This document shows, one piece after another, positions 11,597 through 21,032 of a DNA stretch of 64,000 nucleotides. The position numbers were made by a program, and so were the translations under genes. A model generated the notes under the pieces. It saw nothing but the letters and a program-made list of their open reading frames with translations, had not been told where the DNA came from and did no database searches. The DNA lies in the NCBI GenBank assembly GCA_903927025.1, contig CAIYLG010000062.1, forward strand, positions 62,001 through 126,000. Reading direction: 5' to 3'. Source of the DNA: an uncultured Armatimonadota bacterium. Lineage in GTDB: Bacteria; Armatimonadota; Fimbriimonadia; Fimbriimonadales; Fimbriimonadaceae. Positions within the stretch are counted from its first letter, which is position 1. Each line of letters starts with the position of its first letter.

Positions 11597-12853
11597 TTAG
11601 ACGATGTGCCGCATGATCTCAGCCAAATCTGCAGTTGAATTCGCAAACAGACTTAGCGTCGCGGCGAAGTAGAGATAGGTAGCGACCCTTCCTGCGATTT
11701 TGATTCTGGGATTCTGACGGTATGCCAAAAGTTGCTGTTTGGACATCTTCGCCTTAAGGGCTACTCCGCCGTAGTGAATGGCTACCACTCCCAGCCCTTG
11801 GGAAATGCCGAAGAGTACAAAGTGTGTCTCTACCCCGTGCCAGAGACCAATCAGGATGAACACGGTCATGATTGCCGCGGCAATAGCATTGTTCACGGAT
11901 ACGCTTGGCCATCGGGTGCAGATTGCCTTGACCATCGGAGTAAACACCATATCTCGCATCCAAGTGGAAAGAGATATGTGCCACTTTGACCAGAATTCCT
12001 GAAAATTACGTGATCCAAATGGATTGTTGAAGTTTTCAGCCACCTGGATTCCACAGAGTGAACTCGCACCGATCGCCACATCGCACAGGCCTGAGAAGTT
12101 GCAGTACAGGAACAGCGGATAAACCAGAACCGCGACGAGCAAGTCTAATTTAGAGTGAAGATGTCCATTGCGCATGAACGCTGGGCCATAGCCAATCTCT
12201 GAAAGGATAGTCGAGAAGAGCAGATACTTTAGGAGGCCCCTGATCATCCTAAGAATATTGGGAAGATGCTCGATCTGGACTTCTCGGGCTCGCTTTGCGC
12301 TGTCAATGAAGAGGCCGTAGGGCGAGATCGGTCCAACAATCATCAGCGGAACGAAGAAGCTGAAAGACAGATACTGAGCGAGTGAGGGCATCTCAACCGC
12401 CTTGTTCCGCACTTCGGTAACCATGAAGCACAGTCGAAACGCAACGTAGGATATCCCGACAAAAATGAACGTGATCGACCCATTCTTTTGAGAATGAGTC
12501 AGAAATGGAATCAAGTCCCGAGCCAACAACAGACTAAAAATAGGTGATGCGTAGGCTGCCGCCCAATTCCTGTCTGACCTGTGGGCAAACGAAAGCGTGG
12601 CAAAGCTAAACAGCACCAAAGCGATATAGACCGCAAAGATTGTGCTGGCATAGATGAAGAACTTTGCCGGCCCTTCAAGCACGTGGTGCTTGTATCCCAT
12701 CGAGAAGGCAAGCATTAGGCTCGAAAATACACTGACGCCTGCAAGAATCGGCCACTTGGGACCGGATGCTGACTTCAGAAGTGGACGAGCCAATAAAGGG
12801 AACAGACAGAATGCCAGCAACAGATAGCCGAATTCGTCAATCTTAACTAGCAA
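11597..12853 (-). CDS. MBOAT-family membrane O-acyltransferase (DltB/AlgI-like)
   Basis: A 418-residue polytopic protein. The MBOAT signature blocks are NFSGLCDVAIG, EFWSKWHISLSTWMRDMVF and IGLWHGVETHF with the catalytic His339. In DltB and AlgI these proteins take an acyl group from a cytoplasmic donor through the membrane to the outside. The start is TTG at 12853, one base after the stop of the 39-residue microprotein gene, so translation is probably coupled. The DltD/AlgJ-like SGNH gene is immediately upstream in the same unit. The C-terminus (ADLAEIMRHIV) has no Tyr-containing shuttle motif of its own, which fits the microprotein carrying that motif. Confidence 0.9.
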   Translation of the reverse strand: MLVKIDEFGYLLLAFCLFPLLARPLLKSASGPKWPILAGVSVFSSLMLAFSMGYKHHVLEGPAKFFIYASTIFAVYIALVLFSFATLSFAHRSDRNWAAAYASPIFSLLLARDLIPFLTHSQKNGSITFIFVGISYVAFRLCFMVTEVRNKAVEMPSLAQYLSFSFFVPLMIVGPISPYGLFIDSAKRAREVQIEHLPNILRMIRGLLKYLLFSTILSEIGYGPAFMRNGHLHSKLDLLVAVLVYPLFLYCNFSGLCDVAIGASSLCGIQVAENFNNPFGSRNFQEFWSKWHISLSTWMRDMVFTPMVKAICTRWPSVSVNNAIAAAIMTVFILIGLWHGVETHFVLFGISQGLGVVAIHYGGVALKAKMSKQQLLAYRQNPRIKIAGRVATYLYFAATLSLFANSTADLAEIMRHIV

Positions 12854-12854
12854 C

Positions 12855-12974
12855 CTAAAATCCCCCGTACACGGTATCCACCATCAGCGCGTTTACCGGC
12901 ATCACCAGGATGAGCCCCAGCAGGATGACCGCGAACAGTACAAACAACATCTCCAGTGGACGCAATCGCTTCAC
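12855..12974 (-). CDS. 39-residue membrane microprotein, DltX-like acyl-shuttle candidate
   Basis: A short reading frame between the SGNH and MBOAT genes. The GTG start overlaps the SGNH stop (GTGA), and the TAG stop lies one base before the MBOAT TTG. It encodes a basic N-terminus (Lys2, Arg3, Arg5), one hydrophobic span at about residues 9-31, and a short tail. By the positive-inside rule the C-terminus faces out. The last six residues are TVYGGF, with Tyr36 four residues from the end. DltX proteins end in an F-x-Y-x-x-F-type hexapeptide whose Tyr accepts the acyl group from DltB; here Thr replaces the first Phe. Position, topology and motif all fit an acyl shuttle. No homology search was possible. 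Confidence 0.72.
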   Translation of the reverse strand: MKRLRPLEMLFVLFAVILLGLILVMPVNALMVDTVYGGF

Positions 12975-14041
12975 TTCTGCGCTCCCGGTCGGTTAGTGCC
13001 AGCAAACACCGAGTAAAGGGCGGGAATTACCTTTGCACTGTAAATCGCCGCGCCTTCCGCATTGAGGTGCAAGGGATCTTGGAAATACTTCTTCTCCGCC
13101 TCTTTCCCAGAGATTTGCCCGAATAAATCGGCCTTTGACGTGGCCACTATTGATTGGCCGGGATCCAAGACTTCCTTCGGCAGGTTCACACGAATGGGAT
13201 CACTGTCGAGGTCCCGAGACATGGGCAGATTTACCAGTAAAACCTTCGCTCCGTGGTCCTTCGCCAGCTTTAGAATCTTCGAAAACATGAGCCCAAAATA
13301 GCCACTTTTGCCAGCCGAAGTCGAATCAAAATTCAACCGGTCGCTACCAGGCGAAAAAAGATATCTCTCCGCGGAATCTTCAAATGTGATTGACAAGGGA
13401 TCAATTTTCCCGTATCGGTGGACAACATCTTCATCGAGGCCATCTGTCGTCTTTTCGTGCTTGGACAGCACGTTGGGTCGAATCGCATTGAGAAACTGAC
13501 GAGGACCGTTTAGAACCATCTCTCCGTAAATCGCGGCTTTGTGCCCAAGCGACATGCCCTCATAAAGCTCCGGAACTTCACCGAATCGCAAAATATCGCA
13601 AATGCTCTCATCGGGTGAGTTTTGAGCCTGAAACCGCTCTGGCATGGCAAGTACGATCAGCTTAGTGTGATGAGTTTGCAGATAGTCGCGGATTTCTAAA
13701 TAGTGGACGTCGGGCTTGGAACGCAGAAGATAAAGATATCGAATCTTCGCCTCACGGCCTAATTTCTGGGTGAAATATCGATTAACGACGACCGGCCTTA
13801 ATGCGGTACACATCGTTGAAGATCCCACAAGAATTGCGTCGGAATCGTCTTGATTGTCGAAGATCGTGGACTCAATACTTCCGCCATCCCCTCGAACGGC
13901 GGGCAGTCCCATATACACCTGTTGCCTAGACGGAAGAGCAACTAAGCTCAATACGACCGGAAGTAGGAGCAGGGAAGCAGAAACAACTGTATATAAACGG
14001 AGTCGAATAACATCTGACTTCGCAGGCAACGAGCTTTCCAT
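12971..14041 (-). CDS. Membrane-anchored SGNH-fold acyltransferase partner (DltD/AlgJ-like)
   Basis: A 356-residue protein with one N-terminal membrane anchor (about residues 18-37) and a large extracytoplasmic domain. A serine motif ILVGSSTM (Ser74/75) and a C-terminal DPLHLNAEG block (Asp322 and His325, the SGNH DxxH pair) mark an SGNH/GDSL-type hydrolase or transferase. In DltD and AlgJ/AlgX such proteins receive an acyl group and pass it to the polymer. It is the first gene of a three-gene leftward unit (SGNH, microprotein, MBOAT) and is divergent from fkbH across a 347-base gap. The acceptor polymer is inferred to be a surface polysaccharide from the neighbouring sugar genes. Confidence 0.8.
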   Translation of the reverse strand: MESSLPAKSDVIRLRLYTVVSASLLLLPVVLSLVALPSRQQVYMGLPAVRGDGGSIESTIFDNQDDSDAILVGSSTMCTALRPVVVNRYFTQKLGREAKIRYLYLLRSKPDVHYLEIRDYLQTHHTKLIVLAMPERFQAQNSPDESICDILRFGEVPELYEGMSLGHKAAIYGEMVLNGPRQFLNAIRPNVLSKHEKTTDGLDEDVVHRYGKIDPLSITFEDSAERYLFSPGSDRLNFDSTSAGKSGYFGLMFSKILKLAKDHGAKVLLVNLPMSRDLDSDPIRVNLPKEVLDPGQSIVATSKADLFGQISGKEAEKKYFQDPLHLNAEGAAIYSAKVIPALYSVFAGTNRPGAQK

Positions 14042-14388
14042 CGTGGTGGCAATTTCTGAACAAATATGTGGCTATTTTCGATGGATCACTTCTTTCCATC
14101 GTTACAGCCAGTCCTAAGCAATCGACTGTCTTTGGCTTCGTTCAGCACGCTGATCTTCACCAGAAGCAGACTTTTTTGACCCGCATCCTGCCGACCGGCA
14201 GAACCACTTTAGGCACATAGCCATTCGGTTCTAGCGTACGACATAATAGGGTCAGCCTGGGTCCCCGTGCTTCCAGCGTTGGTGCATTGGATCCGCTTGC
14301 TTTGTCTTATACCCTTTTGCGCGAGCGCGATTGGAGGGATACCGACTTTAGCTGGGTTCTTTAGACGACTGGATGATTTTGGAACAAT
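14042..14388. promoter_or_regulatory. Divergent intergenic region between the SGNH/MBOAT unit and fkbH
   Basis: A 347-base non-coding gap between two divergent units, so it should hold promoters for both. I see a CATAAT hexamer at 14242-14247 that could be a rightward -10 element, though without a convincing -35. A short palindrome, CTGCCG-AC-CGGCAG, lies at 14188-14201. No small gene or RNA was recognised. Assignment as a shared control region rests on gene orientation. Confidence 0.4.
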
Positions 14389-16248
14389 ATGGCTGAAACT
14401 GATTTGAGCTCACTCAAGGACCTGTTGCGGGCTCGGGATACGCGGTTCGCAACTGAGTTGGTCCGATTAACGAAAGGCTGCTCGGATTTCCAAGATGCGT
14501 TGACTCTCCATACACTCAGACGCCGAGGAACCTCAATCGGGGTTATTTCTGCTTCCGCCACAAAAATAAAGTTGGCGATTATTGGAGCAGCAACGCTTAG
14601 ACCACTTGCCGACCTTATTGAGCACTTCACCACTGTCCTCGTCGGGGCCGAGGTTGACCTCTGGGTGGGTGAATTTGACAACTACACCTTCGAGATCATG
14701 GAGCCTGAAAGTGAGCTTTTTGAGTTCAAGCCCGACTATGTGGTTCTACTGCCCAGTGAGCAAAGATGTCGCTTTGGCGGTCACGAGGAAGCCTCAACCG
14801 AAGCGCAGGTCGCCGAGACAGAGCGGGCGGCAGACGGAATCCTTGAGCTCGCCAAGACGATCCGAAATACATGTGGGGCAGAGGTGCTGGTGTCCAACTT
14901 TAGACTTCCTGCCTCTTACGACCCCGGTCCTGCTCGATGGGCATCCCTGAAATCTGACTACGCGTTTCGAAAGATGGTGAATACGCAGCTCGGCTTAAGA
15001 GCGCCGCAATACGTGCATCTTGTTGACGTTGAGTTTCTGGCCAACCGAATGGGAACGGTCAACACGATTGATGACCGCACGTGGTTCGAAAGCAAGCAGC
15101 CCTACTCTTCACCACTTCTCGTCGAAGTTGCCAAGGAAGTGTCCCTGGTCCTAAAGGGACTGAGAACGGCGCCCAAGAAAGTTATCGTTCTTGATCTGGA
15201 CAATACGGTCTGGGGCGGAATCATTGGAGATGACGGTCTTGAGGGCATTGAGATCGGCACGACCTCACCGAGAGGTGAGGCATTCCGTGCGTTCCAGCAG
15301 TATCTGCTTGGCCTAACGCGCAGAGGCGTCCTTTTGGCGGTCTGTAGCAAAAATGATCACGAGAAGGCCGTTGAGCCGTTCCTGAGACACCCCGAAATGG
15401 TGTTGCGGCTGGAGAATATTGTCAACTTCAAGGCCAACTGGGATCCCAAATCAGAGAACATCCGGCAGATTGCCACTGAGTTAAATCTCGGATTGGACAG
15501 CTTCGTCTTCATGGACGACAACCCCGCGGAAATTGAAATCGTTCGCCAATTTGTGCCGGAAGTCACTTGCATCTGGGCCGGTGACGACCCCAGCCTCTTC
15601 ATCCCGATGCTTCAGAATTCACGCCTTTTTGAATATCGGAATCTAACTGCCGAGGACATGAAGCGGGTTGTCCAGTATCAACAAGAGGCAAAGCGACAGG
15701 AACTCGCCAGCACGGCAACGGACATGGGGTCGTATCTCAGCTCACTAGAGATGGTGGCAAAGGTGAGCAACTTCAACTCGCTTGACACTCCGCGAATTTC
15801 TCAGCTGATCAACAAGTCCAATCAGTTCAATCTCACAACGATTCGCCGCTCCGAAGCAGAAGTCCAAGCCGTATCAACTGATCCAGATCACTCAGCATTT
15901 ACCATTCGCCTGTCAGATCGCTTTGGCGATCATGGCCTCATCGCGGTCGTTGTCCTACGAAGAGAAGACACCTCCTGCATCGTGGACACTTGGCTCATGA
16001 GCTGTAGGGTCCTTAAAAGGCAGGTTGAGGAATTGACGCTCAATATCATTAATAAAAGGGCTGAGACACTCGGCTGTGATTCTGTCGTAGGCATCTATCG
16101 TCCAACTGCAAAAAATGGAATGGTTAGGGACCTATACCCAAAGCTTGGCTTCGCATTGATGGCTGAATCAGATGAAGAGGTACGCTTCAACCTCAAAGTG
16201 AGCGAATTCAAGCCGTTTGAGACAAAAATCAGCGCAGGTGACTTTTAG
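14389..16248 (+). CDS. FkbH-family HAD protein (glyceryl-carrier-protein loading enzyme)
   Basis: A 619-residue protein with the FkbH three-part layout: an N-terminal SGNH-like region, a central HAD domain and a C-terminal GNAT-like part. The HAD motif is VIVLDLDNTVWGG (Asp269, Asp271), followed by GIIGDDG and later FMDDNPAE. The C-terminal block is LSDRFGDHGLIAVV..WLMSCRVLKRQVE. Characterised FkbH-type proteins take the glyceryl group from 1,3-bisphosphoglycerate, dephosphorylate it and load it on a carrier protein. A carrier-protein gene starts one base after the stop, fitting that role. In glycan clusters FkbH-like proteins may load related small acyl groups. The substrate here is therefore likely, not proven, to be glyceryl. 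Confidence 0.9.
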   Translation: MAETDLSSLKDLLRARDTRFATELVRLTKGCSDFQDALTLHTLRRRGTSIGVISASATKIKLAIIGAATLRPLADLIEHFTTVLVGAEVDLWVGEFDNYTFEIMEPESELFEFKPDYVVLLPSEQRCRFGGHEEASTEAQVAETERAADGILELAKTIRNTCGAEVLVSNFRLPASYDPGPARWASLKSDYAFRKMVNTQLGLRAPQYVHLVDVEFLANRMGTVNTIDDRTWFESKQPYSSPLLVEVAKEVSLVLKGLRTAPKKVIVLDLDNTVWGGIIGDDGLEGIEIGTTSPRGEAFRAFQQYLLGLTRRGVLLAVCSKNDHEKAVEPFLRHPEMVLRLENIVNFKANWDPKSENIRQIATELNLGLDSFVFMDDNPAEIEIVRQFVPEVTCIWAGDDPSLFIPMLQNSRLFEYRNLTAEDMKRVVQYQQEAKRQELASTATDMGSYLSSLEMVAKVSNFNSLDTPRISQLINKSNQFNLTTIRRSEAEVQAVSTDPDHSAFTIRLSDRFGDHGLIAVVVLRREDTSCIVDTWLMSCRVLKRQVEELTLNIINKRAETLGCDSVVGIYRPTAKNGMVRDLYPKLGFALMAESDEEVRFNLKVSEFKPFETKISAGDF

Positions 16249-16249
16249 T

Positions 16250-16486
16250 TTGGAACAATCAGAAATTCTTGCAAGGCTACAGAAAGTTTTCGATAACGTC
16301 TTCCTTGACGAAGTTGTGGTCACTCCTGAACTTACGGCAAAGGATGTTGAAGAGTGGGACTCTCTTATTCACGTATCCCTCGTCTTAGCGATTGAAAATG
16401 AATTCAAAATTCGCTTCCGGGTTGGCGAAGTTGAATCCGCTAAGAATGTTGGAGACTTAGCAAAACTCATTCACGCGAAATTTTAA
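16250..16486 (+). CDS. Acyl carrier protein partner of FkbH
   Basis: A 78-residue carrier protein with the 4'-phosphopantetheine attachment motif EEWDSLIHVSLV (Ser38) and an acidic helix III region (VESAKNVGDLAKLI). The TTG at 16250 is preferred because AGGTGA lies at 16236-16241 and it gives a normal ACP length. A second TTG at 16217 would overlap fkbH by 32 bases. It sits one base after the fkbH stop, so the two are surely co-translated. The protein should carry the acyl thioester made by FkbH in the cytoplasm and present it to the MBOAT protein, as DltC does for DltB, or to an unidentified enzyme. Confidence 0.88.
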   Translation: MEQSEILARLQKVFDNVFLDEVVVTPELTAKDVEEWDSLIHVSLVLAIENEFKIRFRVGEVESAKNVGDLAKLIHAKF

Positions 16487-19560: not shown

Positions 19561-20274
19561 TTAGAGTTTGAAGCCAGCTTTCTGGCCGTCCGCGTAGAAC
19601 ATCTTAACGGTGTCCAGCGAGTAATCCGTAAGGTCCTTGCCTACTAGCGACAGCTTTTTGAGCGTGTCGTGAGTGACGGTGATGACATGACATCCGATGG
19701 CATCTGCTTGGAAGATATTGAGAAGCTCTCTTGGGCTCGCCCAGATCAACTCCAGGTTAGGCACCAGCTTCAGCATCTCTACGGAGGCACACATCAGCGG
19801 CAGTGGATCCACTCCGGTATCAGCGATTCGTCCCGCAAACACTGAGACATAGCTTGCTGGGGTGCCTTCGAGACATGGGACGATATCTCGAACCTGCGCA
19901 AGTGTCATTAACGCAGTCACGTTCAGCTTGAACCCTTCAGAGGCAAGCTTCTTGACGAGGGGCCCTGCATCTTCACCTTTGGTATTTGTGATTGGAAGCT
20001 TGACGTAAACGTTGGAGCCCCAAGAGCCGATCTTTCTAGCCTGTCGCTCCATTTCATCAAAGTCGTCCGCGAAGACTTCGAATGAGAATGGCTTGTCTGG
20101 AATCTCTGCAACCAAGTCTCGACAGAATGCTTCGTAGTCAGGAATTCCAACCTTGGCCATCAGGGTTGGGTTCGTGGTGAAACCCTTGATCGTCGGGTTT
20201 TGGTTGAGTTCGAGGATGCCTGCTTTTTCAGCACCATCTGCGAAAATCTTAATCTTGAGGTCTGCAATGCTCAT
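19561..20274 (-). CDS. Transaldolase (short, fructose-6-phosphate-aldolase-like class)
   Basis: A 237-residue (beta/alpha)8 enzyme of the small transaldolase class. Seen are NPTIKGFTTNPTLMAKVG, VYVKLPITNTKGED with the presumed Schiff-base Lys, and NVTALMTLAQV. Transaldolase moves a dihydroxyacetone unit between sugar phosphates, making or using sedoheptulose 7-phosphate. It is embedded in a leftward sugar operon directly after a GmhA-like isomerase whose substrate is sedoheptulose 7-phosphate, which suggests a dedicated supply of that precursor. A terminator follows. It could also serve the central pentose phosphate pathway. Confidence 0.87.
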   Translation of the reverse strand: MSIADLKIKIFADGAEKAGILELNQNPTIKGFTTNPTLMAKVGIPDYEAFCRDLVAEIPDKPFSFEVFADDFDEMERQARKIGSWGSNVYVKLPITNTKGEDAGPLVKKLASEGFKLNVTALMTLAQVRDIVPCLEGTPASYVSVFAGRIADTGVDPLPLMCASVEMLKLVPNLELIWASPRELLNIFQADAIGCHVITVTHDTLKKLSLVGKDLTDYSLDTVKMFYADGQKAGFKL

Positions 20275-20303
20275 ATTGAATTTCTCGAGCTGTCGGCTCC
20301 GAA

Positions 20304-20900
20304 CTACTTAATCGACTCCCACTTGGCGACATTCCCCTGAAGCGCTGGGTGCGAAACGAGGAGGTGCCATACGACTGCCTGGAATGATTCTGTGTGCGGA
20401 GTCACAGAGCCGCTGTTGACAGTTGGAACGATCACGCAAGCGTCGGCAACCTGGGCACAGTAGCCGCCATCTCGACCAACCACGCCGATGATCTTTGCGC
20501 CCACTTCTTTAGCAACCTGAAGCGCCCGTACGAGGTTTGGACTAACGTTGTGCTCGAGGGAGCCGCCACCTACGGAGAAGACAAGAAGCATATCCTTGCT
20601 GGATAGCTTGCTTCCCTTGAGGTATGAAGCGAAGACGGTTTCCCACCCTTCGTCATTCGTGCGAGCAGTCAACTCGGAGACATTGTCAGTGGGAGCATAA
20701 GATTCAATTCCGACAATCTTTCTAAAGTCGTTAACGGCGTGACCTGCATGGCCAGCTCCACCACCAACTCCAAGGATAAACAAACGTCCCCCGGAGGCTT
20801 TCAGGTCGACTAGCAACTCGACCATCTTGTCGATCGTTGCGACGTTCAGCTGCTCAAGAATCTCGATGGATTCCTTAATATGGCTCTCAGTAAAACTCAT
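20304..20900 (-). CDS. SIS-domain sugar isomerase, phosphoheptose-isomerase (GmhA)-like
   Basis: A 198-residue single SIS domain. Key blocks are RLFILGVGGGAGHAGHAVNDFRKI, a Ser-rich phosphate-binding loop region (LLVFSVGGGSLEHN), KIIGVVGRDGG and TPHTESFQAVVWHLL. GmhA converts sedoheptulose 7-phosphate to D-glycero-D-manno-heptose 7-phosphate in the cytoplasm. I chose ATG 20900 because GAGGGGAGG lies about 14 bases upstream; an in-frame TTG at 20927 would put that motif inside the gene. It lies between the nucleotidyltransferase and transaldolase genes on the same strand. A different keto-aldo sugar phosphate is possible. Confidence 0.82.
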   Translation of the reverse strand: MSFTESHIKESIEILEQLNVATIDKMVELLVDLKASGGRLFILGVGGGAGHAGHAVNDFRKIVGIESYAPTDNVSELTARTNDEGWETVFASYLKGSKLSSKDMLLVFSVGGGSLEHNVSPNLVRALQVAKEVGAKIIGVVGRDGGYCAQVADACVIVPTVNSGSVTPHTESFQAVVWHLLVSHPALQGNVAKWESIK

Positions 20901-21032
20901 TTTGGTCGAAAGACCTCCCCTCTTCAAAAATGGTCGAATCGCTCAAATTGGCGGTTCAGACTTTTACAAAACTGTTGCCCCAAAAAGGTACCGTCTCGAC
21001 CAAAGATTACACTTCCGAGTGTACCAGCACCA

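Follow-up and report, generated by a model that had tools for sequence, protein, structure and literature searches.

A 39-residue microprotein as a probable detached acyl shuttle of an MBOAT-SGNH system in an Armatimonadota bacterium

Results

The microprotein gene and its reading frame

The microprotein gene lies on the minus strand (12974..12855) of a 64-kb window, the whole stretch of Armatimonadota DNA that was analyzed. It starts with GTG and codes for 39 amino acids and a stop codon (VKRLRPLEMLFVLFAVILLGLILVMPVNALMVDTVYGGF). As in the original prediction, the frame sits between an SGNH-like gene (14041..12971, minus), with which it shares 4 nt (GTGA), and an MBOAT gene (12853..11597, minus), whose TTG start follows the microprotein stop codon after a 1-nt gap. 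The encoded protein has a basic N-terminus and a single hydrophobic span (Kyte-Doolittle 3.25 over 17 residues), also as predicted, and ends in TVYGGF (codons 12858..12875, minus). Tyr36 (codon 12867-12869, minus) is residue -4 and Phe39 is residue -1. An RBS-like GGGAG is found 7 nt upstream of the start codon. Another RBS-like element, GGGGGA, is 7 nt upstream of the MBOAT start and corresponds to both Gly codons of YGGF, which likely double as the ribosome site of the MBOAT gene. The 39-residue membrane microprotein was overlooked by gene finders.

To judge how readily such a frame arises, short ORFs and shuffled sequences were compared with it. The window holds 547 ORFs of 30-70 amino acids, eight with a strong membrane span; only the microprotein combines a span with Tyr(-4) and Phe(-1). 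When the gap sequence was shuffled the frame stayed open in 21% of cases, and none of 200,000 shuffles gave an open frame with both a span and the Y..F ending. From its sequence, then, the frame is taken to be a real gene and not a chance one.

Genes neighboring the microprotein

The neighboring MBOAT (11597..12853, minus) is 418 amino acids long and DltB-like. It matches Pfam MBOAT (3e-20), and is fitted far better by the NCBIfam profile TIGR04091 LTA_dltB (3e-49), where its 168 bits fall under the equivalog cut-off of 375. The closest solved structures, compared by sequence, are of DltB (8jem, 6bug). The enzyme retains the conserved LWHG histidine (His339), and its C-terminus, AEIMRHIV, has no Tyr motif, bearing out the predicted lack of a shuttle tail. 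On the other side of the microprotein gene, the SGNH-like gene (12971..14041, minus) codes for a putative extracytoplasmic acyltransferase. No family profile or structure matched this protein; the assignment comes from two motifs read in the sequence (GSSTM in the GSS block, and DPLH), the gene position and an N-terminal membrane anchor.

An intergenic region (14042..14388) separates these three genes from a divergently transcribed unit. It begins with a gene for an FkbH-type loading enzyme (14389..16248, plus), which scores 312 bits against TIGR01686 (cut-off 147) and is the sole FkbH copy in the genome. Overlapping its 3' end is an acyl carrier protein (ACP) gene (16217..16486, plus; start codon uncertain) with a DSL attachment site and matches to ACP profiles of 1e-6 to 1e-4. 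A TIGR01686 match above cut-off next to an ACP with the attachment serine is what characterizes an FkbH glyceryl-ACP loading pair. Neither gene was part of the original prediction, and with them the locus reads as a carrier-fed, probably glyceryl, system.

Beyond FkbH and the ACP lie sugar nucleotide genes encoding an epimerase/dehydratase, two nucleotidyltransferases, a glycosyltransferase, a GmhA-like isomerase and GalE. With these genes the locus looks like a surface-polysaccharide island, and the acyl acceptor is probably that polysaccharide. Inside the island, at 19561-20927 (minus), a transaldolase gene (TIGR02134, above cut-off) adjoins a gene for a GmhA-like sugar isomerase, a pair hinting at an unusual heptose-type sugar.

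Detached shuttles accompany tail-less MBOATs in the phylum

Using the MBOAT as query, we searched 291 genomes of the phylum, examined the flanks and classified 96 distinct MBOATs. An own Y-x-x-F tail, mostly FIYFQF, is present in 82 of the 96, and no detached shuttle lies within 2 kb of any of these 82. The other 14 lack an intact tail, and in 10 of them a small ORF with a span and a Y-x-x-F ending is encoded nearby. The co-occurrence of detached shuttles with tail-less MBOATs is significant (Fisher p 9e-11, 96 MBOATs), as counted by a criterion fixed after the first examples had been seen and with three same-genus loci that are not independent. Besides the window (TVYGGF), detached shuttles are found in genomes G203 (VLYQAF), G114 (FIYVDF) and G250 (FVYARF) and in three genomes of one genus (FIYIDF). 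Those of G118 (FIYIDF), 1.7 kb from an MBOAT cut by the contig end, and G104 (FFYQRF), with a partial MBOAT, complete the group together with G247 (NVYARF), where the shuttle is 804 nt away before an SGNH gene.

The four MBOATs without a shuttle comprise two fused-length genes with damaged tails, one gene broken by an in-frame TAG and one exception to the rule, a 416-aa tail-less MBOAT in G247 (L170:1176-2426), for which no shuttle was detectable on its short contig. The two fused-length MBOATs (L195:1914-3299 and L176:2090-3583) have the tail Tyr changed to Cys (FLCFRF) or the tail lost; they may be broken genes, sequence errors or cases of altered chemistry. At another locus (L043:54-344, minus), the shuttle gene is followed downstream by two more small ORFs that end in ESKFIYIDF, an arrangement resembling a repeat of the shuttle's C-terminal end.

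In an alignment of ten shuttles, no columns other than Tyr36 and Phe39 are invariant. The original prediction had pointed out that the first Phe is replaced by Thr. The substitution is present and is not a defect, as V, Y, S, N or W are also found at this position in detached and fused shuttles. In a sample of 11,355 short ORFs (1.88 Mb) there are 11 distinct ones with a span, Y(-4) and F(-1), all at tail-less MBOATs or real DltX; as the sample was centered on MBOAT and FkbH loci, this measures specificity and not a genome-wide rate. No close orthologue of the microprotein, the MBOAT or the SGNH-like protein was found in the genus or in the species-representative collection, and the relatives are distant (24-32% identity), with tree positions on long branches. 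Conservation at related loci, the check proposed with the original prediction, came out in its favor, in the form of a detached one-span Y-x-x-F protein usually encoded near a tail-less MBOAT and not of strict orthologues.

FkbH and ACP with detached and fused shuttles

FkbH, an ACP, a tail-less MBOAT and a microprotein occur together in three separate places. One is the window. In G203, of the same phylum, a single operon has the order FkbH-ACP-MBOAT-microprotein-SGNH. The third is a contig (L262) coding for FkbH, ACP, MBOAT and a microprotein ending in YVYGGF, with the following gene cut by the contig end. This contig is classed as viral and is unrelated to the window; a scan for FkbH across viral contigs found no relative.

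Tistrella mobilis also encodes FkbH, an ACP and an MBOAT, with the shuttle at the C-terminus of the latter (...FIYAGF). As its sequence reads, this MBOAT is a natural fusion of the shuttle. In an MBOAT tree built without the tail columns, those of the window, G203 and Tistrella form one group (97/92) on long branches. When L262 was added, their union was neither rejected nor proven (p 0.50). One clade (100/99) holds most of the fused MBOATs, and the Tistrella tail lies outside it. Therefore, on these trees, the shuttle has switched between the detached and fused states at least twice.

Fused tails are also found with FkbH elsewhere. An FkbH is encoded with an MBOAT on S. meliloti pSymB (FLYQGF) and in Rhodobacteraceae SC52 (FIYFNF), and in Bacillota 22 of 40 FkbH loci pair FkbH with an MBOAT, all with fused tails. 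Carrier-fed systems are thus not always accompanied by a detached shuttle, as the fused-tail FkbH-ACP-MBOAT arrangement is common in Bacillota and present in Alphaproteobacteria. Residues -3 and -2 of the tail (GG, AG or QG in FkbH systems) looked suggestive as a mark of the cargo, an idea set aside since other FkbH-linked tails read FIYFKF, FIYFQF and SIYDDF.

FkbH and ACP genes repeatedly adjoin a fused-tail MBOAT gene in Bacillota (L134, L136, L222-L256) and Alphaproteobacteria (L098, L100, L211), suggesting a common acyl-ACP-fed, perhaps glyceryl, surface modification module that is apparently undescribed. A VOC-family gene recurs by alphaproteobacterial FkbH-ACP loci (L098:1843-2310, L100:10350-10778, L104:8271-8738), two of them with an MBOAT.

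Discussion

A proposed route for the acyl group

We propose, with a probability of roughly 84% judged from the sequences, that the microprotein serves an MBOAT-SGNH surface acylation system as its detached acyl-shuttle subunit. Of the features by which this class is recognized, the window encodes an MBOAT with the catalytic His (His339) and no other acceptor tail, and a partner carrying the Tyr hexapeptide; the adjacent SGNH-like protein has candidate Ser and Asp-x-x-His motifs (GSSTM and DPLH). Acyl transfer through a shuttle Tyr is established for DltX and PatA (PMC12148441). Enzymes of the FkbH family make glyceryl-S-ACP from 1,3-bisphosphoglycerate (PMC7489565). FkbH would load an acyl group, most likely glycerate, onto the neighboring ACP, and the tail-less DltB-like MBOAT would take it from the ACP at the cytoplasmic side and transfer it to Tyr36 of the extracytoplasmic C-terminal TVYGGF. 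The tail could then swing to the SGNH protein, whose serine would accept the acyl group, and the SGNH protein would hand it to the surface polysaccharide. The analysis shows the genes, their motifs and setting, and the co-occurrence of tail-less MBOATs with detached shuttles; the topology, the acyl-Tyr36, the glycerate cargo, the acceptor and each chemical step are what we infer from them. Because of the divergent FkbH and ACP genes, we expect the donor to be glyceryl-ACP and not D-alanyl-DltC; that glycerate is the cargo is the reading we lean toward.

The shuttle could instead carry D-alanine, a product of oxidation or methylation of glyceryl-ACP, or some other acyl group. The MBOAT is nearest to DltB, the ACP matches DltC weakly, and the products of FkbH commonly undergo further modification in other pathways (PMC7489565). 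Set against this, no DltA-like ligase adjoins the operon, no oxidase or methyltransferase is encoded within the unit, and FkbH is both the only loading enzyme at the locus and the only FkbH in the genome, leaving a different cargo unlikely but worth keeping in mind. We think it very improbable that the microprotein is a genuine DltX from a D-alanylation operon, despite its matching length, topology and tail plan and the DltB-like MBOAT. The Pfam DltX profile did not match the microprotein at E up to 10, while two annotated DltX proteins run alongside it reached 57.9 and 57.6 bits. From the dlt set of DltA, DltB, DltC and DltD, the locus has only the DltB-like MBOAT, below the equivalog cut-off; DltA is missing, and the SGNH-like protein showed no relation to DltD by phmmer.

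Other explanations give the microprotein no acyl group to carry. Membrane complexes are often stabilized by small single-span proteins, and the microprotein might likewise be a structural or assembly subunit joining the MBOAT and the SGNH protein. We consider this improbable given that no columns but Tyr and the final Phe are invariant in the ten aligned shuttles, and that the window MBOAT is without another acceptor tail while 82 of the 96 MBOATs in the phylum have one. Only 39 codons long, with its final Gly codons coinciding with the MBOAT ribosome site and no close orthologue for a selection test, the frame might even be a chance ORF or a translational spacer between coupled genes. Its uniqueness among the short ORFs of the window, its failure to appear in the shuffles and the presence of the same part with the same tail at independent loci make that scarcely credible.

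If the microprotein is an acyl shuttle, the consequences reach beyond this locus. It is an evenly balanced question whether FkbH-ACP-MBOAT-SGNH systems make up a widespread undescribed class that moves glycerate across the membrane in the form of a glyceryl-tyrosine ester, with a modular shuttle that is either fused or a separate, usually unannotated, microprotein. In the literature, FkbH together with an MBOAT was found only in cyanobacterial natural-product work, and a text search for HAD-IIIC with MBOAT found nothing; both searches covered freely readable papers, so the class may be published elsewhere. DltX, of the D-alanine pathway, is the one small protein so far credited with carrying an acyl group across the membrane; the key paper on this role is reportedly that of Schultz et al. 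2023, which may also list detached motifs outside Dlt. The Y-x-x-F shuttle would then be a modular part present in several phyla, and inspecting the neighborhood of MBOATs without their own Y-x-x-F tail offers a rule for finding missed small genes. The probable glycerate-transfer chemistry on bacterial surface polymers is directly testable.

Comparison with known MBOAT systems

In the D-alanine pathway, DltB takes D-alanine off DltC and places it on the Tyr of DltX, and DltX passes it to DltD (PMC12148441). Like DltX (PF12459), the microprotein is about 40-50 amino acids long, with a basic N-terminus, one span and a C-terminal Y-x-x-F, and it sits beside a DltB-type MBOAT without its own tail. 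It differs in having Thr for the first Phe of FXYXXF, with the Tyr and last Phe present, and in its gene lying between those for the SGNH protein and the MBOAT, whereas the DltX gene precedes dltA. Loading would be by FkbH instead of DltA. The microprotein thus works, as we read it, in the manner of DltX, yet falls outside the Pfam DltX family. In the dlt operons of Gram-negative bacteria, DltX shares the topology but no sequence similarity, and the small DltX gene is frequently missed in annotation (PMC5541007). In Lactobacillus crispatus and Enterococcus casseliflavus, the annotated DltX ends in FIYNEF. On a Ligilactobacillus murinus plasmid (L200:3938-5346), a lone DltB homologue directly follows a bactofencin A gene, with no DltX annotated.

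A plasmid of Klebsiella electrica (L020) encodes DltD, a 40-aa protein (...FEYQKF), an MBOAT, an AMP ligase and an ACP. The window shares with it the order DltD/SGNH-microprotein-MBOAT and the 4-nt overlap. This plasmid locus is of the Gram-negative dlt-like kind with a non-homologous DltX, and has an AMP-binding ligase with its ACP where the window has FkbH. A Leptolinea (Chloroflexota) plasmid codes for a 47-aa protein (...WIYQGF), annotated as hypothetical (L202:12140-12283), 5 nt before a tail-less MBOAT; no carrier protein was seen near this locus.

The fused modules of Tistrella, S. meliloti pSymB, SC52 and Bacillota resemble the window in having FkbH, ACP and MBOAT as neighbors. An SGNH-like neighbor was read by eye in the three Alphaproteobacteria (Tistrella, S. 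meliloti and SC52). Tails in these modules include FIYAGF, FLYQGF and FIYGGF, and there the shuttle is the MBOAT C-terminus, unlike the separate shuttle of the window. PatA likewise transfers the acetyl group of acetyl-CoA to its own C-terminal Tyr, and PatB unloads it (PMC12148441). Like PatA/PatB, the window system would pair an MBOAT and an SGNH protein with a Tyr hexapeptide as acyl carrier, here as read from the genes. In PatA the hexapeptide belongs to the MBOAT itself, carried on two additional helices, and acetyl-CoA serves as the donor, whereas the window encodes a separate microprotein and an ACP. Non-Dlt MBOAT pathways have been stated to have neither a microprotein of the DltX type nor a carrier protein (PMC12148441). 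We find this statement too narrow, because the window locus and its relatives have a microprotein and a carrier outside Dlt.
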